Shown: piece by piece, positions 4,288-32,361 of the stretch | Layout: the number at the start of each line of letters is the position of its first letter | Position numbering within the stretch: the first letter of the stretch is position 1 | Virus record (IMG/VR): IMGVR_UViG_3300031227_000219 | Coordinates: 1 to 33,629 of that record | DNA: 33,629 bases | Reading direction: 5' to 3' (one strand) | Source: a virus | Translations under genes and position numbers: made by a program | The notes under the pieces: generated by a model | The model's input: the letters and a program-made list of their open reading frames with translations, nothing else | Databases searched by the model: none | What the model was told of the DNA's origin: nothing

Positions 4288-4659
4288 ATGACTGGAATCA
4301 ACAATTGGGAATATGCAAAGTGGGCGATTGTTATTGGGCGTTCTTTGCGCTTCAATCCGCCCGTTGCAAATAGTGTAGAGTACAACACCGTTTTGAGTTT
4401 CATTGGTTCTGTTACGAACATAAGTCGTCAATGGCTTAAAGAGAGTGTGTATTGGAAAATGCGTACTCCTAATGTCAATTACAACATTACTCCAAATGAT
4501 TTAGGTGAAGCAGTTGTGTCAATTGGTCGCGACATGATGAAGATACCGGTTAGAGATGCCGTTGAAAGAACATGGGTTCAATGGTTGATTATAGCTACTG
4601 GTAATCGTCGTTATGGGGCCAAGGGCAATACGATTGGTTCCAAAGTAACGGTGCCCTAA
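4288..4659 (+). CDS. Hypothetical protein, paralogue of the product at 18355
   Basis: The gene encodes 123 aa with AGGAGG before the ATG. Its ending (ATGNRRYGAKGNTIGSKVTVP) closely parallels STGNRRYG....GGSKVDLP in the protein at 18355. Both begin with a W-x-YA-[KR]-W segment and are of similar length. The pair is therefore likely to derive from a duplication. The fold is probably mainly helical. Both occur among structural genes, which suggests a virion role, but nothing identifies it. Confidence 0.75.
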   Translation: MTGINNWEYAKWAIVIGRSLRFNPPVANSVEYNTVLSFIGSVTNISRQWLKESVYWKMRTPNVNYNITPNDLGEAVVSIGRDMMKIPVRDAVERTWVQWLIIATGNRRYGAKGNTIGSKVTVP

Positions 4660-5592: not shown

Positions 5593-7878
5593 ATGCCAGC
5601 AAGACGTTGCACCTCAGAGTCATGTTTGTTGGAAGCGGCTCACAAGAGTCGTCTTTTTTCTTTAGAACTTCCTGTTGCTGACATTTTACACAATCCGCAA
5701 CGGGAATGGTTGATTCGTTCGTTGGGCAATCGAAAGCGTGTAGCATCTGATCGTAAGATCTCGGTTGATTGGAAAAAGTTCAACGTAGAAGACTATTTTT
5801 TCACTCATTGTACAATCGTTTGTTCGGTTGTCACAGCTTCAAACGGGTACTACATAGAGCCTCCTTGTGATGAGCTTGTGAACAACAATGGAAATGCTTG
5901 GAATAACGAAGTTTTGTTATCCACGTTTAGGTCATTTGTTGGGGCTGAGAACTATTTTGAACACATGCAGGCGCCTGAGCTTTCTAAAGGAAAGATTTTA
6001 GATGCGGTTATACGCCCAGTAAACTATAAGGGCAAGAATGGCAAAACAGCCGATATTTACTATACAGATATTTTGGTAGCAACTGACCGCAAGCACATTG
6101 ATTTGGTAGAGCGGATTGAGAAAGGCGAGTTGAATACATTATCCATGGGCTGTTTTGAAGCTGGTACTTTGGTAACTATGGCTAATGGCACTCGTAAGCC
6201 TATTGAGACTATAGAAAAAGGCGAGCGAGTAATTAGTCATCGTGGTTATGCAAGAGAAGTATTGCGTCCAATTAAAACGCAATGGCTTGGCGATATGTAC
6301 AAGGTTCATGTTGAAGGAAGACCTGAGCCGATAGTTTGTACTGGGAATCATAAGTTTTGGTCATGGCAAAGACCTCCGTATTGTGCCTGTGGTTGTGGGG
6401 AATCTTTGCCTGATGCGAGTGTTTGGAATAAGCGAAAAAGTTTGAAAACGTCATTTGTAAATGGCCATAGAATGCGTGTTTTGAATCCGATGGTTGAATA
6501 TAGTGTAAGTGAGAAAGAACGACGGCTGGCGATTTTGGACGAGGCGGCGCAACCGCATTTTGAATGGAAGGAAGCTCGCGGTCTTGAGGCAGGAGCCTAT
6601 CTTACAATTCCAAGTGAATACTCGATTGGCTCAGAAGATGTTTCTGTTGCTCGTGCTCGTTTGTTGGGTCTTTATTTGGCAGAGGGTTCAATAAACAACT
6701 GTGGTGGCTATAAATCAGTTGGGTTTACTTATTCACTCTATGAGAAAGATACTCTTGCTCAAGAGACAAAAGAACTGCTTGCTAAAGAGTTTGGAGTCGA
6801 ATCATCAGTTTATGAACGAAGTGACAGAAATACGTGTGAAACCAGAACACACAAGAATGATTTTGTTACAGAATGGTTTCAAAGTCATGGCGGGCATTAT
6901 TCTTGGGCTAAGGCTATTACTGAGGGTGTATTGCATTGGCCGCTTGATGCGTTACGAGCACTTGTCGGTGGATGGCTTGATGGTGATGGGTGTATGCATG
7001 AGGGCGGTCGTAAACGAATTATAGGTGTTACTGTTAGTGCTGACTTGGCGAGTCAGATAAGTCTTATTTTGGCTCGTTTGGGAATCTATCATACGTGGAA
7101 TGTGAAGGATGAATATGAGTCTGTTGAAAATGGAGTTATTGTTCCGCATCGTAAAAGCCACTATATTACAATTCCTTCAAGTGTTGTTCATTTAGTAACA
7201 CCATTTACAATGCGGTGGAATGATGGTGACCCAAGGCCAATTCACTCGCGTTGTCATATTCAGCCATCTTCAGAGAACGTAGTTGTGCGCGTGAAGAAGG
7301 TTGAACAGTTACGTCCGATACATGATGATAATGAACTATCGACAGTATATTGTCTTGAAGTTGAAGAAGAGCATAGTCTGTTAGTTGGTGGTAGTGTAGG
7401 AGTTCAGAACTGCGTCGCCCATTGGGTTACATGTAGTAAATGTGGCAAAGAGATAGCTGATGAGAAAGACAATTGTGAGCATATCAATAAAGAGTTGATG
7501 ACATACTTTACGGATGATAAAGGTGTCAAACGTATAACAGCAGAACTCTGTGGGCGCACCTTTGAGTCGAATGGAAAAAGAGTAGGGGACCAAGAATCTG
7601 TTCAGTTTATTGAGGCAAGTTGGGTTGAGCGTCCGGCTTTTACAGGGGCAGTTTTGAATTACTATGTTAGTGATATTCCAGAAGAGAAGAAGGCGAGTCT
7701 TCTGGAATACTCTTCGATGGACACGATGTATACCAATCTTGCCCAACTGAGGGTTGCTGATACAACTGGGATGATGGCGGTTCGTCTTGCCAAGGAAGAA
7801 GTGAAACGTTTGAATCTTGTCTATCTTGTTAATCGTGTAGCAATGAATGGTGTTAAATTCAGAAAGAAGGAGGCTTGA
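5593..7878 (+). CDS. Head-assembly protein (capsid maturation protease-like, SMGC family) interrupted by an intein
   Basis: The frame encodes 761 aa; removing the intein (residues 187-606) leaves a host protein of about 341 aa. The N-extein contains SKGKILDAVIRPV, DILVATDRKHIDLVERI and GELNTLSMG. The C-extein resumes with CVAHWVTCSKCGKEI...NCEHI, then VERPAFTGA. This combination matches a conserved phage head protein encoded just upstream of scaffold and major capsid genes, often annotated as a capsid maturation protease or structural protein. The Cys residues after SMG probably bind zinc. The start lacks a good Shine-Dalgarno site, so the first few residues are uncertain. The gene order here supports a head-assembly role; proteolytic activity is not shown by a motif I can point to. 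Confidence 0.75.
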   Translation: MPARRCTSESCLLEAAHKSRLFSLELPVADILHNPQREWLIRSLGNRKRVASDRKISVDWKKFNVEDYFFTHCTIVCSVVTASNGYYIEPPCDELVNNNGNAWNNEVLLSTFRSFVGAENYFEHMQAPELSKGKILDAVIRPVNYKGKNGKTADIYYTDILVATDRKHIDLVERIEKGELNTLSMGCFEAGTLVTMANGTRKPIETIEKGERVISHRGYAREVLRPIKTQWLGDMYKVHVEGRPEPIVCTGNHKFWSWQRPPYCACGCGESLPDASVWNKRKSLKTSFVNGHRMRVLNPMVEYSVSEKERRLAILDEAAQPHFEWKEARGLEAGAYLTIPSEYSIGSEDVSVARARLLGLYLAEGSINNCGGYKSVGFTYSLYEKDTLAQETKELLAKEFGVESSVYERSDRNTCETRTHKNDFVTEWFQSHGGHYSWAKAITEGVLHWPLDALRALVGGWLDGDGCMHEGGRKRIIGVTVSADLASQISLILARLGIYHTWNVKDEYESVENGVIVPHRKSHYITIPSSVVHLVTPFTMRWNDGDPRPIHSRCHIQPSSENVVVRVKKVEQLRPIHDDNELSTVYCLEVEEEHSLLVGGSVGVQNCVAHWVTCSKCGKEIADEKDNCEHINKELMTYFTDDKGVKRITAELCGRTFESNGKRVGDQESVQFIEASWVERPAFTGAVLNYYVSDIPEEKKASLLEYSSMDTMYTNLAQLRVADTTGMMAVRLAKEEVKRLNLVYLVNRVAMNGVKFRKKEA
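6151..7410 (+). mobile_element. Intein with LAGLIDADG homing endonuclease
   Basis: This in-frame insert of 420 aa begins at Cys (CFEAGTLVTMANGTRKPI, block A) and ends VGVQN followed by Cys, so the +1 nucleophile is Cys. Block B shows TGNHKFWS, with the expected T-x-x-H. Two LAGLIDADG motifs are visible: LLGLYLAEGS and LVGGWLDGDG. The end has VYCLEVEEEHSLLVGG (block F). The penultimate residue is Gln rather than the usual His. Near residue 260 a C-x-CGCGE cluster followed by FVNGH may be a small zinc motif. It splits the conserved SMG-C motif of the host protein, a typical choice of essential target site. Confidence 0.93.
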
Positions 7879-9027: not shown

Positions 9028-9087
9028 TAGAAGTAGAAGCCTGTTGACTTTCAGGGTTATTTGACCCAAGTTAGAAAGGAGATACGG

Positions 9088-10071
9088 ATGGTCCGTCGAA
9101 GAATTACTCGGATTGGAAAGAAAAAGCCGCGTAGTCTTGTTGCTGAAATTGCGGCTGTGGAAAAACAATTGGGAATGTATTCTCAGGACGATGACTTAGA
9201 CGATGATCTTTTAGAAGATGAATTAGAAGATGACTTAGAAGATGACTTAGAAGATCTTTTAGAAGACGACTTAGAAGACGACTTAGAAGATGAATTAGAA
9301 GACGACTTAGAAGATGATCTTTTAGAAGATGAATTAGAAGATGATCTTTTAGAAGATGACTTAGAAGACGACTTAGAAGACGACTTAGAAGACGATTTGC
9401 TGATAGACGAGTCCATCTTGTCACAAGACGAAGATGAAGATGCCGAAGAAGACTACGAAGATGCCAAAGACGAAGAAGATGAAATTGATGACGAGATTGA
9501 AGTTGAGGACGATGAAGATATTGAAGCTATGCTTTATTCAGAAGATGAAGAGGCTTCAGAGGAACTTATCGAAGAAGAATTCAATGTAATGTCTCAAGAC
9601 GATGACGACGACGATGACGACGATGATGACGATGATGACGACGATGATGACGACGATGATGACGACGACGACGACGACGACGACGACGATGATGACGACG
9701 ACGACGACGATGACGATGATGATGAAGACGATGACGATGAGATTGCTTGTGTAACATCGAGGCGCAATTCTTCTCGCAGGCGAAGGAAAGCTTCACGTCG
9801 CAGGCGTTCTAGCGAAGAAGAGCCTGGCATAGAAGACGAGATTACTCAGGATTCTCTTAGTGATGTTGAAGACGAGCGTGGCAAAGAAGATTTGGCGACT
9901 GAACCTTCGACGCTATCAACAGCCCCAACTTCTTGCACTGCACGTTATCAGGAAGCATCGAAGCGTCTTGACAGGGTGGCAAGTTACTTTGAGAATCAAG
10001 GTCGTAAAGATTTGGCTTTGCGAGTAGATAGGCTGGCAGACGCGGTTGATGCTTTGCTGCCGAACAAATAA
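9088..10071 (+). CDS. Hyper-acidic poly-Asp scaffold/core protein
   Basis: ATG 9088 follows AAGGAG by six bases, giving 327 aa. The N-terminus is basic (MVRRRITRIGKKKPR) and leads into a helix VAEIAAVEKQLGMYSQDD. Residues about 35-105 are repeats of LEDD/LEDE units. A second tract has 42 uninterrupted Asp codons, followed by E-DDDD-E. Basic Arg/Ser patches (SRRNSSRRRRKASRRRRSS) come next. The C-terminal 45 residues form a helix pair (ARYQEASKRLDRVASYF, LALRVDRLADAVDALL). Basic ends, acidic body and location next to the capsid gene fit a scaffold or internal core protein. The motif [ML]x-S-Q-D occurs three times (MYSQDD, ILSQDE, VMSQDD), possibly processing sites. Confidence 0.8.
   Translation: MVRRRITRIGKKKPRSLVAEIAAVEKQLGMYSQDDDLDDDLLEDELEDDLEDDLEDLLEDDLEDDLEDELEDDLEDDLLEDELEDDLLEDDLEDDLEDDLEDDLLIDESILSQDEDEDAEEDYEDAKDEEDEIDDEIEVEDDEDIEAMLYSEDEEASEELIEEEFNVMSQDDDDDDDDDDDDDDDDDDDDDDDDDDDDDDDDDDDDDDDDDDEDDDDEIACVTSRRNSSRRRRKASRRRRSSEEEPGIEDEITQDSLSDVEDERGKEDLATEPSTLSTAPTSCTARYQEASKRLDRVASYFENQGRKDLALRVDRLADAVDALLPNK
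9191..9399 (+). repeat. In-frame minisatellite encoding LEDD/LEDE units
   Basis: The 12-base unit TTAGAAGA[TC]GA[CA] is repeated about 15 times with occasional CTTTTAGAAGAT variants. All variation keeps the reading frame and the acidic character. Such repeats usually vary in copy number by slippage. Confidence 0.85.
9598..9723 (+). repeat. Tract of 42 consecutive Asp codons
   Basis: The tract consists only of GAC and GAT in a mixed order, so the codons are not a simple trinucleotide expansion. The mix suggests selection on the protein sequence. The opposite strand is open as long Ser or His/Arg runs, which are shadows. Confidence 0.95.
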
Positions 10072-11664: not shown

Positions 11665-14600
11665 ATGTCCGTAGACAATAAGACTAAGCAGGAAATCATC
11701 AGCCAATACATCAAGACTGCCGCTGGCCGGCAGCGTCTTGCGGCGAGCATTAACTGAATGGTGCTCGTAAAATCCGGTAAATTGCTGGGACACCCTTAGA
11801 CATGAAAATCAACGGCATAACAATTAGCGAAACGAGATTGACGAAGCTGACGGCTATATTAGCTAATAAGGTTTATAGTTACATGTCCAAGGACAATCAG
11901 CATCCGAGCCTTGTTGGAAACGACGAGGAAGGTTCAACGACTGGAGACGAGGCTAAGGGCCAAAAAGCCTATGCCGGTAAGGTCTCGCCTGCATTCGGTA
12001 ACGATGTGGGTATGCCGGGCATTCTTGAGAAAAAGAATGGTGATACAGTCTGAACTCATCGGTAACGGTGAGAGGTAGGTTGAGAGACCTATCCGCCTTG
12101 TGCAAGCAAGGTTGTAACAGAATGGATTCAGCCTCTTCGTCGGCGTCGGGACTACACTTCCGTGGGATAACGTACCGTCTCACGTTAAACTCGGTAAATT
12201 GCTGGAAACTCATGGAGAAGTTGTAATGCGTGAGGTTTTGAACAAAGAGTTGCTAACAAAACTCTACGTTCTTGATAAGAGAACTGATAGAGAAATTGCT
12301 GGCATACTTAATGTTCATCGTGCATCAGTTACAGTGGCTCGAAAGAGACATGGAATAAAAAAGATTAGAGAGTATGAGAGGAAAAATCTCTCTGATTTGT
12401 CTGATGTGCAGACTTCATTGATCGACGGTTCCATATTAGGTGATGGAGCAATAGAACGTAACCATTCAAGTTCGTATGTTTTTTCTTTTGGACACTCACA
12501 AAAACAACACAGTTATGCTAAGATGAAAGCGAAGATTCTTGGAGATTATTTTAGTAATGTTAGAATTGACAAGAAAGGCATGATGTGTGTCAGGTCGATT
12601 GTGCATCCTGTCTTTGGTGAATATCGAAAAGAATGTTATATCAACATAGATGGCAAGTGGCATAAAAGAATGCCCAAATCGTTATTGGACAGATTGAATC
12701 TTTACTCGCTTTCGGTGTGGTACTGTGATGATGGTTGTCAGAGTGGCAATCAGGTTTGGTTTTGTGTGGGGTGTCCAGTTGAAGAAGACCGCGAGAACGC
12801 AATTTCGGTTATTGAAGATAAATTTGGACTTTCTTGTTCTATTCATAAGATGAGCAGGGAAGAATGTTGGAGACTTTGTGTGTTAAAGCGTTCTCAAGAG
12901 AAATTTTTTGATATTGTGAGTGGTTTCGTTAGCATTGCAATACCGTACAAGATACCTAACTGGTATCAAGTGCGGCATGACAATCAGCAGCCAAGCCTTT
13001 TTGGAAACGAAAAGGTGGGTTCAACGACTGGTGGAAGCCTAAACTCTGATAAAGAGCATGGCGATAACACACGCCTTGATTGGGAGACTAATCAGGGTAC
13101 GCCGGGTGCCTGTATGATGAAACAGGTGAAGATACAGTCTGAACAGCAGTTAATTCTTGGTAGCTGTTGAGTCTGGCAGAAATGACCAGAACGGTATCTT
13201 GAAAAAGATACTTGTAACAGATTGCGCAAGGCGTTCTTCGTCGAACAGTTGCCCGATGGTGCTTTGCCGATTTACGACAAAGACCCAAACGTCACCGCTT
13301 ATGTGATCGGTGAGGAAGGCGAGAACATCGTTGCGGTTGCAAAGCCAAAGCGTGTTCTTTTCCCGCTGTTTGAAATTGCGTCGAATCCTGAAATTCAACT
13401 CACTGAGGTTAAGTCTCGTCGTTTTGACCTTAATACCCATGGGGTCGCTGTTTAGAGATAAACAGATAAAAATATCCCGTAAATTGCTGGAACCCAAATG
13501 AGTAACGAATTTTCTGAAACTATGATGAAGACAAATTTGAACAATGATGAGGTTCGCAGTCTATATCAGAATGGTTTTTCTGATATTCAGATTGCCAAAC
13601 AACTTCATGTTGGTCGTGCTAAACTTCGTGCTTGGCGTGAATCTAATGGTATTCCGTCAAAAAAGAAGGTTGTGCAAAAATTATCTTTATCAGAATTGCA
13701 GAAAATTGTAGAAGGGCTAAATGCCGGTCAAACACTTACCAACATATCAAGTGAATTGAACATGAGTCGTGTAACCTTAGCTAAGATGATCAAGAAGGCG
13801 GGACTTTCTTACAAAGAATACCGTCCTGCTCATCCAGTTGAGATTGACGATTATGTTCTTACACAAGTTCAAAAAGAAGTTCTTTTGGGTGATATGTTTG
13901 GAGATGGCGGACTAGTGCCTACTAGCAAAAAAAATGCTTATTATCAATGCGCTCATAGTATTGGTCAAAAGTCATTTTTATACTGGAAGGCGAATGTTTT
14001 CCATCCTTTGACTTCCAGAGTAGGAAGTTATAAGACCAAAGATGGTGAATACGTGCGAATGGGGACGTGGACAAGTGGTTGTCTCAAAGCTTATCATCAA
14101 GATTTTTATCCTGATGGAAAAGGCAATAAGACAATTACAGTCTCACTTGCAAATCGTATGACACCATTGGCATTAGCTGTTTGGTACATGGGCGATGGTT
14201 CTATCAACAGGAATACCGGAGTATTTCATGTTGGAAGGCAAATTGAGTTTTATCAAGTAGCAGAAATTCTATCTGATAAGTTTGAAATGCTGTTGAAGGC
14301 ATGTCGTTATGAACGTGAATGGCATCTTAGGGTTATGAATCCTGAAAAGTTTTTCACGCTTATATCGCCATATCTTCTTGAATCATTCGGGTATAAAGTT
14401 CCCAAAGCCTATCGTGAACTTGTTGGCAATCAGCAGCCGAGCATTCTTCCAATAATGGAGCAGACTGAACGGATTGGTGAAAACCGATTCCTCAGTGTGT
14501 CGAAAGAGAATGAAGGTTCAGAGACTGGTGGAAGCCTAAACTCTGATAAAGAGCATGGCAATAACACACGCCTTGTGAAGTTATCACAGGGTATGCGGGA

Positions 14601-15189
14601 CATCCATTCCTCGTTGGATGAAGATACAGTCCACTCTACATCACTTCGATAAGATGTAGGTTGCATTGAGAGAAGTGTAGATCTGGCGAAGTCGGAGATT
14701 CAGGCTGAGGAAGACCGTAAGGTGTTCGCAGTCATGGACGCTCTCGCAACGGACCCGACGAACCCCAACCCGGACATTCCGGTAACGGGCAACCTGACGG
14801 CCAATGCGTTGGCAGATGCTTTTGCCAACATCGAGCGTACCGACATTCGGGTCGCTAACGTATTTCTCAATGCCAAGGATTATGCAGACCTACGTAAGTG
14901 GGACCGCGATACCCTTGACATCGAGACACAGCAAGTCTTGCTGAAGACTGGCCTGATGGCAACGCTTTGGGGTGCGAAGCTTATCGTATCTCGTATTGTT
15001 CCTGAAGGAACGGTTTATGTGTGTGGAGAACCTGAGTTCTTCGGACGCATCCCAGTAAGAACAGAGCTTACTGTTCTCTCCGCTGACGACCCTAAGAACA
15101 GGCTGATTGGTTTCTCTGTTTTCGAGAACATCGGAATTGGGGCATACAACCCATTTTCGCTTCAACGCCTGGTTATCACGAGAGTCTAA
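11665..15189 (+). CDS. Major capsid protein, four exons split by three group I introns
   Basis: Joining 11665-11751, 12126-12167, 13225-13430 and 14664-15189 gives an uninterrupted 286-aa protein. It reads ...GRQRLAASI / IQPLRRRRDYTSVG / RKAFFVEQLPDGALPIYDKD...EVKSRRFDL / IERSVDLAKSEIQAEEDRK and ends LQRLVITRV. This resembles HK97-fold major capsid proteins of large phages, which share RRDY-x-x-(V/I)-G-R-K, PLFEIA and AEEDRKVFAVMDA segments. AAGAGGAG precedes the start. Exon 1 and 3 boundaries are supported by P1 and P10 pairings. The exon 2/3 junction is placed by protein homology and may be off by a few bases. No frame reads through without splicing. It is followed by a strong terminator. 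Confidence 0.88.
11752..12125 (+). ncRNA. Group I intron 1 in the capsid gene (no intact endonuclease)
   Basis: This 374-base intron has all four conserved core segments in order: P GGTAAATTGCTGGGA near 11776, Q AATCAGCA near 11895, R GGTTCAACGACTGG near 11931 and S TGATACAGTC near 12041. P1 forms between exon GAGCATT and intron GGTGCTC, with U-G pairs at the splice site. P10 forms between exon 2 ATTCAG and CTGAAT. The last base is G, as expected. It lacks a full homing endonuclease. Confidence 0.9.
11802..12053 (+). pseudogene. Vestigial endonuclease frame inside intron 1
   Basis: An open frame of 83 codons starts right after segment P and ends in segment S, the same layout as the full endonuclease genes in introns 2 and 3. 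Its C-terminal part DNQHPSLVGNDEEGSTTG is in the same frame as DNQQPSLFGNEKVGSTTG of the intron 2 protein. The LAGLIDADG motifs are absent. I read it as a deletion remnant of an endonuclease gene, or simply core RNA that stays open; it is unlikely to be functional. Confidence 0.5.
12126..12167 (+). CDS. Major capsid exon 2 (14 codons)
   Basis: The exon encodes IQPLRRRRDYTSVG only. The upstream boundary is well supported: the first six exon bases ATTCAG are complementary to CTGAAT in the P1 loop of intron 1 (P10). The downstream end could be 12167 or 12168. The unusually small size means two mobile introns sit 42 bases apart. Confidence 0.8.
12168..13224 (+). ncRNA. Group I intron 2 in the capsid gene
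   Basis: This 1057-base intron shows P (TCGGTAAATTGCTGG near 12191), Q (AATCAGCAGCC near 12982), R (GGTTCAACGACTGG near 13017) and S (GAAGATACAGTCT near 13128). Exon CGTGGGAT can pair with GTCTCACG in the intron start, giving an eight-pair P1. By that pairing the splice would follow T12168, whereas capsid homology fits 12167 with intron end G13224. The exact junction is therefore uncertain by a few bases. An endonuclease gene fills the segment between P and Q. Confidence 0.88.
12226..13170 (+). CDS. LAGLIDADG homing endonuclease of intron 2
   Basis: I choose ATG 12226, preceded by GGAG about 9 bases upstream, over an extension starting at 12199; the product is 314 aa. An N-terminal HTH (DREIAGILNVHRASVTVARK) precedes two LAGLIDADG motifs, LIDGSILGDGAIE near residue 65 and LSVWYCDDG near residue 165. 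The C-terminal 60 residues are encoded by the intron core itself (Q, R and S segments), so these residues are constrained by RNA structure. It probably cleaves intron-less capsid alleles to spread the intron. Confidence 0.88.
   Translation: MREVLNKELLTKLYVLDKRTDREIAGILNVHRASVTVARKRHGIKKIREYERKNLSDLSDVQTSLIDGSILGDGAIERNHSSSYVFSFGHSQKQHSYAKMKAKILGDYFSNVRIDKKGMMCVRSIVHPVFGEYRKECYINIDGKWHKRMPKSLLDRLNLYSLSVWYCDDGCQSGNQVWFCVGCPVEEDRENAISVIEDKFGLSCSIHKMSREECWRLCVLKRSQEKFFDIVSGFVSIAIPYKIPNWYQVRHDNQQPSLFGNEKVGSTTGGSLNSDKEHGDNTRLDWETNQGTPGACMMKQVKIQSEQQLILGSC
13225..13430 (+). CDS. Major capsid exon 3
   Basis: The exon encodes RKAFFVEQLPDGALPIYDKD through SRRFDL. It ends GACCT, which pairs with GGGTC in the start of intron 3, with the usual U-G pair at the splice site. 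The reading frame continues into exon 4 with codon CT/C. Confidence 0.82.
13431..14663 (+). ncRNA. Group I intron 3 in the capsid gene
   Basis: This 1233-base intron shows P (CGTAAATTGCTGGAA near 13479), Q (AATCAGCAGCCGAGC near 14428), R (GGTTCAGAGACTGG near 14515) and S (AAGATACAGTCC near 14621). P1 pairs exon GACCT with GGGTC, ending in U-G. P10 pairs exon CAT with ATG. A stretch of about 50 bases around 14525-14575 is nearly identical to intron 2 around 13028-13078, so the two introns are close relatives at different insertion sites. Confidence 0.9.
13498..14652 (+). CDS. LAGLIDADG homing endonuclease of intron 3
   Basis: The gene encodes 384 aa from ATG 13498; a second in-frame ATG at 13522 is possible, and neither has a clear ribosome site. 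Two HTH-like segments occur (LYQNGFSDIQIAKQLHVGRA and TLTNISSELNMSRVTLAKMI). The LAGLIDADG motifs are VLLGDMFGDGGLV and LALAVWYMGDGSIN. Like the intron 2 protein, the C-terminus runs through the ribozyme core (QQPSI, GSETGGSLNSDKEHG). Function: DNA cleavage for intron homing. Confidence 0.9.
   Translation: MSNEFSETMMKTNLNNDEVRSLYQNGFSDIQIAKQLHVGRAKLRAWRESNGIPSKKKVVQKLSLSELQKIVEGLNAGQTLTNISSELNMSRVTLAKMIKKAGLSYKEYRPAHPVEIDDYVLTQVQKEVLLGDMFGDGGLVPTSKKNAYYQCAHSIGQKSFLYWKANVFHPLTSRVGSYKTKDGEYVRMGTWTSGCLKAYHQDFYPDGKGNKTITVSLANRMTPLALAVWYMGDGSINRNTGVFHVGRQIEFYQVAEILSDKFEMLLKACRYEREWHLRVMNPEKFFTLISPYLLESFGYKVPKAYRELVGNQQPSILPIMEQTERIGENRFLSVSKENEGSETGGSLNSDKEHGNNTRLVKLSQGMRDIHSSLDEDTVHSTSLR
14664..15189 (+). 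CDS. Major capsid exon 4
   Basis: This is the largest exon, 175 codons plus stop. It begins C-ATT-GAG (IERSVDLAKSEIQ) and covers the capsid core: VFLNAKDYADLRKWDRD, LKTGLMATLWGAKLIVSR, GTVYVCGEPEFFGRIPVRTE, IGIGAYNPFSLQRLV. The exon start CAT pairs with ATG next to the intron 3 guide sequence. Confidence 0.88.
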
Positions 15190-15453: not shown

Positions 15454-15855
15454 TTGGCGAGAGACACAAGCAGTAATAGGACACACAAGCAACATGGTTT
15501 GTCTGAGGATAAGTTACGGGAGTTATATGGTAGTGGGTTATCGGACGAAAAAATAGGCGAGTTGTATGGTTTAACGGGTAATGGCGTATCTGCGTTGTTT
15601 AGAGGTACTGGTGGTGTAACGGTGAACTATAGCAATGTGGTTATTTACAGCACTGACATTGCTCAATCATCTTGGGGCTCTGGGCCATTTTCTGTTTCTC
15701 CATGGACGCTATGGAAGAATTGGTCAACAGAGTTTTGCCGTTATAATCCAACGCCCACAGCGGCGTTTTGGGCTGGTGCGCCTCCTACTGATCTTCTTAC
15801 AGCGTTTAACAGAGTAGTTGCTGTTGTGGCTGGCGCTCATGGTCCTATTCCGTAA
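15454..15855 (+). CDS. Small protein with endonuclease-type HTH segment fused ahead of a possible structural domain
   Basis: The frame from TTG 15454 encodes 133 aa; a shorter start at GTG 15620 would give about 78 aa. Residues 15-50 (LSEDKLRELYGSGLSDEKIG, LYGLTGNGVSALFRG) form an HTH like that of the intron 3 endonuclease. The C-terminal part (PFSVSPWTLWKNWSTEF, PTAAFWAGAPPTDLL, VVAVVAGAHGPIP) has another composition and may be the real gene. No strong ribosome site supports either start, though AAGGGG lies 13 bases before TTG. The HTH could be a leftover of a homing element. The 264-base gap before it holds the terminator, the promoter and nothing else clear. Confidence 0.5.
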   Translation: MARDTSSNRTHKQHGLSEDKLRELYGSGLSDEKIGELYGLTGNGVSALFRGTGGVTVNYSNVVIYSTDIAQSSWGSGPFSVSPWTLWKNWSTEFCRYNPTPTAAFWAGAPPTDLLTAFNRVVAVVAGAHGPIP

Positions 15856-17449: not shown

Positions 17450-18199
17450 ATGAAACTCAAAGGCATTGTTTTAGCTGGCGGGACGGCGAGTCGTTTGTAT
17501 CCTTTGACTGCTGTATCCAACAAGCATTTATTGCCTGTTGGGAAGATACCAATGATTTATTGGCCTATTGCGCGTCTTTTAGAGGCAGATGTTCGAGATA
17601 TTTTGGTAGTAACAAGTTGCGACCATATTGGTCATATTGTTGGCTTATTGGGTTCGGGTAGTGATATTGGGGCAGAGTTTACGTATCGGGTGCAGGATAA
17701 GGCAGGCGGAATAGCTCAAGCTCTTGGGTTGGCAGAAGATTTTGTAGATGAGTGTTGTGTGGTAATTTTGGGAGACAATATTTACGCGGGCACGATAGCT
17801 GATAAGATAAAGTCATTTGACGGTATTGGTTCCAAGATTTTTCTCAAGGAAGTTCCTGATCCCGGACGTTATGGCGTAGCTGAACTTTCTGTGTGCGGGG
17901 ATAGAGTTATTGGCATTGAAGAAAAACCACGTGAACCCAGGACCAATTTGGCCGTAACTGGTTGTTATATGTATGACTACAGTGTTTTTGAGGTTATAAA
18001 GACTTTGAAGCCTTCTGGGCGTGGTGAGATTGAGATAACAGATGTCAACAATTACTACATTAGTGAAGGCAGAATGAAGTGTGCTGAAATAGTTGACGAA
18101 TGGACGGATGCGGGCACTTTTGACAGTTTACAGCATGCAGGTGTTCTTGTTCACGATTTGCCGATTCCTGAAGTTGTATCAGCTATTATGACGAAATGA
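17450..18199 (+). CDS. Glucose-1-phosphate thymidylyltransferase-like nucleotidyltransferase (RmlA-like)
   Basis: The gene encodes 249 aa with AAAGGAG before the ATG. It starts KGIVLAGGTASRLYPLT, the nucleotide-binding loop, followed by NKHLLPVGKIPMIYWPI. VILGDNIY contains the catalytic Asp region. DPGRYGVAEL, GIEEKPREP and GRGEIEITDVNNYYI complete the signature of the RmlA/RfbA family. The enzyme joins dTTP and glucose-1-phosphate to make dTDP-glucose. It is shorter than the usual ~290 aa, because the C-terminal helical part is trimmed. In a phage this may feed glycosylation of virion, DNA or host envelope; none is shown here. Confidence 0.88.
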   Translation: MKLKGIVLAGGTASRLYPLTAVSNKHLLPVGKIPMIYWPIARLLEADVRDILVVTSCDHIGHIVGLLGSGSDIGAEFTYRVQDKAGGIAQALGLAEDFVDECCVVILGDNIYAGTIADKIKSFDGIGSKIFLKEVPDPGRYGVAELSVCGDRVIGIEEKPREPRTNLAVTGCYMYDYSVFEVIKTLKPSGRGEIEITDVNNYYISEGRMKCAEIVDEWTDAGTFDSLQHAGVLVHDLPIPEVVSAIMTK

Positions 18200-29930: not shown

Positions 29931-30857
29931 ATGAGTTTAGGACGATTTTTTTTGATTCGTTGGATTCGTGTTCTTATGGGTTTAGGGGATAATTCTGTAA
30001 AGCCTCCTGACAATTCACAGACTTCTCAAATCAAACGGGCTTTGCTTGTAGGGATCAACAAATATGCCATGCCGGGCAATGATTTAAACGGTTGTGTCAA
30101 CGATGTAGAAGACGTATACGATTTGCTTACGAAAGAGTATGGCTTTGAGAAAGACAATGTGCGCGTATTGACGGATGAGCGTGCCACGAAGATGGACATT
30201 ATAGACAGATTGCATTGGCTTGTAGATGAAACACAAGCAGGGGATATTGCTGTTTACTATCATAGCGGACATGGTACAAGAGTACGTGACCGCAACGGGG
30301 ATGAATTAGATGATTGTTTAGATGAATGTGTTGTGACTCACGATCATGATTGGGACAATCCACTGATAGATGATATTTTGGCTGACATTTTCAAAAAGCT
30401 TGTTGATGGGGCATATTTGAATGTAGTCGTAGATACATGTCACAGTGGCACTATTACTCGTAATTTTAGCAATCCAGAAGACGACAAAAACGTTTCTCGC
30501 AAGACACGTTTTCTTATGCCTCCGTTTGACATTGCGGCCCGTTCATTTAGTCGCGATTTACCGGTAAGACATTTTGGCGAGAAGTTCAATTTGCCAGGCA
30601 ATCAGCGGCACGTTTTGCTTTCTGGGTGCAAAGATGACCAGTACAGCGAAGAGTTGTATATTAGTGGCAAGGTTCGTGGTGTATTGACACACAGTATGAC
30701 ATCCTTTTTGCGCTCTGTGTTAGAGCCTGATACAAATTGGAAGATGGTTAGGGCGAATGTGCTGGAGGCTATCAAGAAGGCCGGTCACGAGCAAATACCA
30801 CAGTTGTCGGGTATGAATGAACTGTTGAAGAAAGAGCCATTTGGAGGGAAAGTCTAA
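29931..30857 (+). CDS. Metacaspase/caspase-like (C14) protease
   Basis: The gene encodes 308 aa with GGAGG upstream. After an N-terminal hydrophobic-basic helix (GRFFLIRWIRVLMGLG), residues 35-60 read RALLVGINKYAMPGNDLNGC, the typical start of the caspase fold. IAVYYHSGHGTR carries the catalytic His (His114) and VVVDTCHSGTI the catalytic Cys (Cys170). VLLSGCKDDQYSEE is also typical. Metacaspases cleave after Arg/Lys and are rare in phages. It may process virion proteins or act in host interaction. It lacks the shared tag, but the tagged CCA-type gene follows seven bases after it. Confidence 0.88.
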   Translation: MSLGRFFLIRWIRVLMGLGDNSVKPPDNSQTSQIKRALLVGINKYAMPGNDLNGCVNDVEDVYDLLTKEYGFEKDNVRVLTDERATKMDIIDRLHWLVDETQAGDIAVYYHSGHGTRVRDRNGDELDDCLDECVVTHDHDWDNPLIDDILADIFKKLVDGAYLNVVVDTCHSGTITRNFSNPEDDKNVSRKTRFLMPPFDIAARSFSRDLPVRHFGEKFNLPGNQRHVLLSGCKDDQYSEELYISGKVRGVLTHSMTSFLRSVLEPDTNWKMVRANVLEAIKKAGHEQIPQLSGMNELLKKEPFGGKV

Positions 30858-30864
30858 TGAAAAT

Positions 30865-32361
30865 ATGATAGCCAAAGAATTGATCAAAATAGCCAGACTG
30901 CTTTTATCTTCTAATGCTGAGAAGGAAGTAGAGCGTTTGTTGAAAGTCGTTCTCAAACGTTCACCGTTTGCTAATAAAGCTCATGCTGTGGGCGGATATA
31001 TTCGAGATGAGCTTTTGGATCAATACGAAGCTAAAGATTTGGACATTGTTGTTGAAATGCGTAATGGTGCTGAAAAGCTAACAAAATGGCTACATCAAAT
31101 GTTTTCTGAGTCAACACACCGTCCACGTCAGTTAGGGTCTGGTTATCCTATTTGGCAGCTTGTTTTCAAGGATACCACAGAGCATAAAGGCGAGTTATAC
31201 AAGACTGATGGCGCTGCGATAGAATTTGCTGATGCTCAGAAAGAGATGTTCCCGGACCCTACTTCACGCCAGCGAGTAACAGTTCCCGGAACGCTTGAAG
31301 AAGATGTTGAGCGCAGAGACTTTACTGTCAACATGCTTATGAAAGATTTGACCACAGGTGAGATAAAGGATTTGACTGGTGTAAGCAAGAGTGATTTGGA
31401 GAAGGGCATTTTACGTGGTCATCCCAATGTTTCGTTAGAGAAGACGTTTGCAAATGATCCACTTCGTATGCTTCGTTTGATACGTTTTCAGGCCAAATAT
31501 GGTTGGGATATACCACTTTCTGTATTGAAAACAGTAAAGAAGATGTCGGACAGGATTTCCATAATATCGGGCGAACGCATACAAGAAGAGCTTGTCAAGA
31601 TAATGAAGTTAGGTAAGTTATCCAAGGCTGTCAAGCTGATGAAGGTTGTAGGGCTTTTGCGATATGTTTTACCAGAGATAGAAGATTTATCCAAGACAGA
31701 GCAAAGTCCAGATCATCATGCTGAGGGTGATGTTTTTCGTCATACCTTGATGGTTCTCAAGAATGCCAAGCCGACCGTGGATGCCCAACTATCAGCTTTA
31801 TTGCATGACGTAGGCAAGCCTCAAGTTCAAGAGATTTTAGGGGATAAGATACGGTTTATTGGTCATGACGATGTTGGCGGAGAGATTGCGGAAGCCATTA
31901 TGCGTCGGTTAAAGTTTGATAAAAATGTGATAAAACGTGTTAGGATGATGGTAGAGCAACACATGCGACCTCTTAATTTGGGTGATAAGCCTTCTGGAAA
32001 GGCTTTGAGGAAGTTTATACGCAAAGTTGGAGATGGGATGGTAGACGGAATACTTGACCTTGCAGAAGCAGATGCATTGGGTAGTTTACCTCCGAGGAAT
32101 TACATTCCAGAACTACGTGAACAGATAGAAGAAATCAGACGTGAATCTCCTGTCAGTGTGAAGCCCGTATTGGATGGCAGAGAGATAATGCAATTACTGG
32201 GAATCAAGCCTGGGCCGCAGATTGGCCAAATAACTCGGTGGTTACAAGAGAAAGAAGATGAATATGCTTCTCGGGGAATGAAGTTGACGCTCGATGAAGC
32301 AAAGACACTTGTTCGTGGAGAGTTTGGCAATAAAAGTAACTTTTCAAGGAGAGAAGAATGA
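30865..32361 (+). CDS. CCA-adding-type tRNA nucleotidyltransferase with HD domain and N-terminal tag
   Basis: The start is ATG 30865; a TTG at 30841 overlaps the previous gene. The product is 498 aa. MIAKELIKIARLLLSS is a strong tag preceding the enzyme. HAVGGYIRDELL and AKDLDIVV (residues 40-62) are the G-G...D-x-D catalytic centre of the class II nucleotidyltransferase family. ERRDFTVNMLM and DPLRMLRLIRFQAKYGW follow. An HD domain (LLHDVGKPQ, His314-Asp315, and EQHMRPL) fills the C-terminal half. The family adds CCA ends to tRNA or poly(A). The tag before the enzyme start is the strongest evidence that the tag is a movable addition. Confidence 0.88.
   Translation: MIAKELIKIARLLLSSNAEKEVERLLKVVLKRSPFANKAHAVGGYIRDELLDQYEAKDLDIVVEMRNGAEKLTKWLHQMFSESTHRPRQLGSGYPIWQLVFKDTTEHKGELYKTDGAAIEFADAQKEMFPDPTSRQRVTVPGTLEEDVERRDFTVNMLMKDLTTGEIKDLTGVSKSDLEKGILRGHPNVSLEKTFANDPLRMLRLIRFQAKYGWDIPLSVLKTVKKMSDRISIISGERIQEELVKIMKLGKLSKAVKLMKVVGLLRYVLPEIEDLSKTEQSPDHHAEGDVFRHTLMVLKNAKPTVDAQLSALLHDVGKPQVQEILGDKIRFIGHDDVGGEIAEAIMRRLKFDKNVIKRVRMMVEQHMRPLNLGDKPSGKALRKFIRKVGDGMVDGILDLAEADALGSLPPRNYIPELREQIEEIRRESPVSVKPVLDGREIMQLLGIKPGPQIGQITRWLQEKEDEYASRGMKLTLDEAKTLVRGEFGNKSNFSRREE

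Follow-up and report, generated by a model that had tools for sequence, protein, structure and literature searches.

Sequence comparison identifies positions 11665-15189 of the viral DNA analyzed here (the window, 33,629 nucleotides), on the plus strand, as the HK97-like major capsid protein (MCP) gene of a huge-phage lineage, with a predicted product of 286 amino acids. With a probability of about 0.93, this HK97-fold gene is split by three independently acquired group I introns of the homing endonuclease gene (HEG)-bearing type, which would be spliced out to leave four ligated exons. Each intron would fold around its own guide sequence (P1) and be excised in a two-step, guanosine-initiated reaction, upon which the four exons would be joined; the LAGLIDADG endonucleases of introns 2 and 3 would in turn cut intron-free capsid alleles of co-infecting phages, and the cut allele would then receive a copy of the intron. 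In vivo splicing, the activity of the endonucleases, and the direction in which introns moved are inferences from sequence comparison. Counting against this explanation are the A-U pairing of the intron 2 5′ splice site, the short P1 of intron 3, and the fact that the window is only a 33.6-kb fragment of a genome, elsewhere in which an intact second capsid gene could lie.

Exon boundaries were placed such that the joined exons restore the sequence of intron-free relatives and that every intron starts with UAA and ends in G. Exon 1 (11665-11750, 86 nt, 3′ end ...GCGAGCAT), once joined, recreates ASMIQP, as found in 75 relatives without introns. Exon 2 is a mini-exon (12125-12167, 43 nt) that encodes M-IQPLRRRRDYTSVG, in a frame supported by an excess of synonymous differences from 57 relatives. 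The joining of exon 3 (13225-13430, 206 nt, 3′ end ...TTTGACCT) produces the SVG/RKAFF and RRFDL/IERS sequences of the relatives (slashes mark junctions), and exon 4 (14664-15189) spans 526 nt including the stop codon. All four lie on the plus strand, their sizes are fixed by the intron-free relatives, and the introns between them measure 374, 1057, and 1233 nt. Intron 1 interrupts Met29, intron 2 falls between Gly43 and Arg44, and intron 3 interrupts Leu112; the predicted junction peptides are LAASMIQPLR, RRRDYTSVGRK, and RRFDLIERSVDLAK. Joined in silico, the exons form one open frame of 286 amino acids, bearing out the start, stop, frame, and length proposed by the first-pass annotation, which had also rightly placed a mini-exon between two closely spaced introns but counted 42 rather than 43 nt for it. 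Shifting both ends of intron 1 by +1 (11751/12126) also preserves the frame, the sole change being Met29 to Ile; intron-free relatives have Met at this position. An exon at 12121-12168 (mini-exon NGFSLFVGVGTTLPWD), picked from P1 and P10 pairing only, proved wrong, as intron-free relatives show the other frame.

The spliced protein matches the PHROG major head protein family phrog_2522 (E=9.3e-41); the Pfam and PHROG searches used an earlier, near-final and near-identical version of it, which leaves the capsid assignment, exon 4 included, unaffected. Its closest named relatives are the MCPs of the 485-kb uncultured phage LR745208 (67%), Tunturiibacter phage Tunturi_5 (51%), and Bacillus phage G (35%). 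An AlphaFold model of an intron-free orthologue is weak (pLDDT 54) and poor except in an A-domain-like part, yet HK97 gp5 structures rank first among its matches in the PDB. An uninterrupted second capsid gene, which had been named in advance as grounds for abandoning the intron reading, was found neither in the 33.6-kb window nor in a 71.7-kb contig with the same gene. Judging from the sequence, the capsid gene, presumably the most highly expressed one, would have to be spliced three times.

All three introns possess the group I core (P3, P4, P6, P7, and P8 with the P, Q, R, and S elements), so the elements reported earlier in three sets were indeed found three times. Intron 1 occupies 11751-12124, intron 2 12168-13224, and intron 3 13431-14663, all on the plus strand; the P element (5′ strand of P4) lies at 11778-11789, near 12195, and near 13480, respectively, and the S element (3′ strand of P7) at 12043-12053, near 13132, and near 14624. 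P1 forms in each of them, as claimed, with 7/7, 7/7, and 6/7 pairs, that of intron 3 being short at 5-6 bp. The P10 pairings proposed for introns 1 and 3 were confirmed by inspection, at 6 bp (CUGAAU with AUUCAG) and 3 bp (CAU with AUG), and that of intron 2 amounts to just 2 bp. A terminal ωG precedes every 3′ splice site (12124, 13224, and 14663), likewise in four relatives with subsets of these introns or one at another site (L050, L056, L085, and L112). By their P7.1/P7.2 insertions, the window introns appear IA-like.

The expectation that the Rfam group I model would match all three introns did not hold. RF00028 shares with them the P/Q/R/S core and the P3-P8 architecture, but its gathering score is reached by intron 1 only (51.4 bits over 11741-12072, cut-off 50); intron 2 scores 23.3 bits and intron 3 is unreported, and a search of the 71.7-kb contig likewise returned introns 1 and 2 only. 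A covariance model, R1, was trained on five intron-1 and intron-2 sequences with intron 3 left out. R1 finds the held-out intron 3 at 14427-14635 with 86.9 bits (E=1.2e-19), as compared to 173 and 148 bits for its training members intron 1 and intron 2, and in the 71.7-kb contig the three MCP introns are its only matches. RNAalifold independently recovered P6, P7, P7.1, P7.2, and P8 from the same five sequences, with double compensatory changes in 20 of the 39 pairs. P1 and P3 through P8 can be drawn in the three window introns and three homologs at the same sites, with compensatory pairs in P1, P3, P5, P6, P7, and P8; helix strands pair 94-100% with their own partners, and swaps between introns lower this to 53% in P1, 41% in P5, 77% in P6, and 45% in P8. 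The strands in these swaps were chosen by hand, which makes RNAalifold and the held-out search the unbiased tests. Weak Rfam matches to LOOT RNA, mir-977, and PhotoRC-I were set aside. The sub-threshold LOOT matches, at 13036-13110 (29.2 bits) and 14533-14622 (21.4 bits), coincide with P7.1/P7.2 of introns 2 and 3, and LOOT RNA may in part describe segments of this intron type.

Introns 2 and 3 carry LAGLIDADG homing endonuclease ORFs (PF03161), and intron 1 only a remnant of one. The intron 2 ORF spans 12217-13170 on the plus strand when read from its ATG, or 323 codons from a TTG at 12199 (E=3.8e-25); that of intron 3 (13498-14652, plus strand, 384 amino acids, E=1.9e-21) has an N-terminal HTH-like region, and the two predicted proteins are 27% identical. 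Both ORFs are inserted in P5, between the P and Q elements, and extend across the ribozyme core's 3′ half. The 83-codon ORF of intron 1 (11802-12053, plus strand) matches the start and end of the intact 342-amino-acid intron 1 ORF of L050 and L056, with the middle and both LAGLIDADG motifs deleted, and has no match in Pfam or PHROG. Thus lacking most of its endonuclease gene, intron 1 is probably now immobile. Searches with the endonucleases as queries found few relatives, among them relatives of the intron 3 endonuclease directly downstream of intron-free capsid genes in two contigs (L088 and L089), where they are apparently free-standing genes.

Relatives with subsets of the introns speak to how the arrangement arose. 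L050 contains introns 1 and 2, separated by the same 43-nt exon, L056 intron 1 only, and L085 intron 2 only, whereas L112 bears an intron at a fourth site, after an Asp aligned with Asp184, which R1 detects with E=1e-4; all four give an open MCP frame upon in-silico splicing. The presence of zero, one, two, or three introns at shared sites, together with a fourth site, argues for each intron being a mobile element in its own right, and the location of the sites within strongly conserved motifs of the MCP is what homing would lead one to expect. L050 and L056 form an intron-plus/intron-minus pair for intron 2 with the pattern of co-converted flanks. They are identical over flanks of 2,211 and 5,484 bp (7.7 kb around the MCP gene) and differ at the gene itself by intron 2 and 22 substitutions, all inside 279 bp around the intron 2 site; further differences cluster some 2.3 kb upstream, within an acidic gene of repetitive sequence. 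The 279-bp tract is the footprint expected of homing with co-conversion of the flanking exons, or of an intron-free segment having taken the place of one with the intron. Intron 2 would accordingly have been gained or lost recently in this pair, and comparison with their nearest relatives favors neither direction.

The introns may also exchange parts. Across P7.1/P7.2, the best match of window intron 1 is intron 2 of L050 (71%, vs. 59% to intron 1 of L050), and window intron 2 most resembles window intron 3 (85%) together with intron 1 of L050 (76%), whereas the 5′ intron segments cluster by insertion site. This pattern, in a small sample, suggests that introns within one gene swap parts.

How firmly do these data support the proposed joining and the integrity of the gene? 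Among the 80 best relatives retrieved with exon 4 as the query, 75 are uninterrupted and one more is truncated by the end of its contig; the spliced window MCP has the same length as the uninterrupted ones, which amount to 57 distinct 858-nt coding sequences. In the proposed frame, the mini-exon differs from these 57 by 495 synonymous and 85 non-synonymous codon-level differences, as compared to 19 vs. 560 and 29 vs. 502 in the two other frames. These counts bear on an alternative joining, of 11750 to 12126 and 12168 to 13225, that would read the mini-exon as IFSLFVGVGTTLPWD and that by inspection offers U·G at both 5′ splice sites, a perfect P10, and a whole gene still in frame. Its frame is the one with 19 synonymous and 560 non-synonymous differences and it destroys the invariant PLRxRRDY motif, making it highly improbable. 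An explanation by inactive insertions or an assembly chimera, with the MCP gene a pseudogene, is scarcely credible either: the same three-intron arrangement recurs in three contigs (the window, L003, and L004) with 1 difference in 3525 nt, the ribozyme cores are conserved, and in all four exons the differences from relatives fall mostly at third codon positions (79% in the mini-exon, 74% in exon 3, and 72% in exon 4), a pattern of purifying selection.

The remaining difficulty concerns the 5′ splice site of intron 2. A U·G pair at this position is near-universal among group I introns, and introns 1 and 3 of the window conform. Window intron 2 (GTGGGA/TAA, guide UCUCACG) has an A-U pair at position -1, whereas its site homologs in L050 and L085 (GTGGGT/TAA, guide GCUCACU) have U·G. 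The G-U wobble just 5′ of the splice site has been described as a strong requisite (PMC6274277), and our literature search for exceptions found only the rule itself stated. For cleavage one base later, after U12168, inspection reveals no terminal G at the conserved 3′ position that would keep the frame. With the only rule-obeying in-frame alternative rejected by selection, intron 2 either splices with A-U or splices poorly. Tentatively, it may splice accurately and efficiently with a co-evolved A-U pair (exon U to A, guide G to U), possibly aided by its own LAGLIDADG protein; such a course is possible but doubtful. It is also fairly unlikely that intron 2 is defective or mis-spliced, with U·G shifted to +1 and cleavage one base later causing a frameshift and a scarcity of capsid, in a lineage that either needs an aiding factor (e.g., an intron-encoded maturase) or is dying. 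The departure from the homologs' U·G and the missing in-frame partner for U12168 are consistent with a defect, and the A-U sequence is identical in three contigs, perhaps not independent samples, which renders a simple assembly error unlikely. Weighing against a defect, the third-position bias of exons 3 and 4 implies that the protein is maintained, and the guide has changed from G to U in step with the exon, preserving the helix. If intron 2 does splice with its A-U pair, a natural, highly expressed gene would be using a group I intron without the U·G hallmark. The pair offers a direct natural test of the strictness of the rule.

Intron-free orthologs, covariation, the detection of held-out intron 3 by a covariance model, and relatives with intron subsets thus support the first-pass annotation's central claim, three group I introns in the MCP gene. 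Its remark that several introns in one phage structural gene are unusual overstated the case, given precedents in Twort orf142 and a crAss-like phage of the zeta group (PMC10136302; PMC7886860). The orf142 gene of Staphylococcus phage Twort, a different gene in a different phage, likewise has three group I introns, two of which are separated by an exon of just 23 nt, and exon skipping is reported for it (PMC10136302; Landthaler and Shub 1999). The window MCP would be truncated to 55 or 44 amino acids by skipping exon 2 or exon 3 alone, respectively; in silico, skipping both gives an in-frame 203-amino-acid protein. The crAss-like zeta-group cMAG OLRF01000054 has an MCP gene in five ORF fragments, with group I intron-type domains at three of the four interruptions (PMC7886860); it represents a gut phage of an unrelated lineage, and the text consulted gives no base-level junctions. 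Mycobacteriophage LittleE has a group I-type intron with a LAGLIDADG-like ORF in its HK97-like capsid gene, the splicing of which was proven by RT-PCR and N-terminal sequencing (PMC3706429), but its intron is single and its endonuclease gene lies on the opposite strand. In the Bastillevirinae, polymerase, terminase, and reductase genes, as opposed to a capsid gene, were found by experiment to contain two or three group I introns, with exon skipping and, unexpectedly, a small exon lodged between two introns (PMC11878797). Multi-intron phage genes, very short exons, and split capsid genes thus have precedents; the present case adds a new lineage with unusually informative alleles. The capsid gene of this huge-phage clade is a docking hotspot for introns, with four sites, and its alleles with zero to three introns form a natural series on intron acquisition, co-conversion, and decay in a gene for a bulk product. 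Gene callers are expected to report fragments for such capsid genes, which are thus easily missed.

Several further features of the window and its relatives were observed. A 45-amino-acid stretch of the short ORF just 3′ of the capsid gene (15454-15600) is 58% identical to the C-terminus of a 690-amino-acid ORF located after the capsid gene of L050 and L056, and is probably the remnant of a lost nuclease-like gene. Two contigs (L114 and L115, both 4298-4450) show a partial duplication, in which a capsid N-terminal fragment of about 50 amino acids stands ahead of a distant, complete capsid gene, and L039 (3785-4111) has an intact capsid gene with a second capsid-like stretch (34% identity, 108 amino acids) downstream of it. 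Upstream of the capsid gene, the head maturation protease ORF (5593-7878) contains an intein at about residues 189-606 with Hint and LAGLIDADG_3 domains, absent in three relatives, where host residues 188 and 607 are joined, and present in G012. An acidic ORF (9061-10071) has a long aspartate run near 9600-9780. Within the structural region, 17450-18199 encodes a nucleotidyl transferase of the sugar-nucleotide type (PF00483, E=1.7e-46). Farther downstream lie genes for a 308-amino-acid caspase-domain protein (29931-30857; Peptidase_C14, E=5e-26) and a CCA-adding/poly(A) polymerase-like protein with an HD domain (30841-32361).
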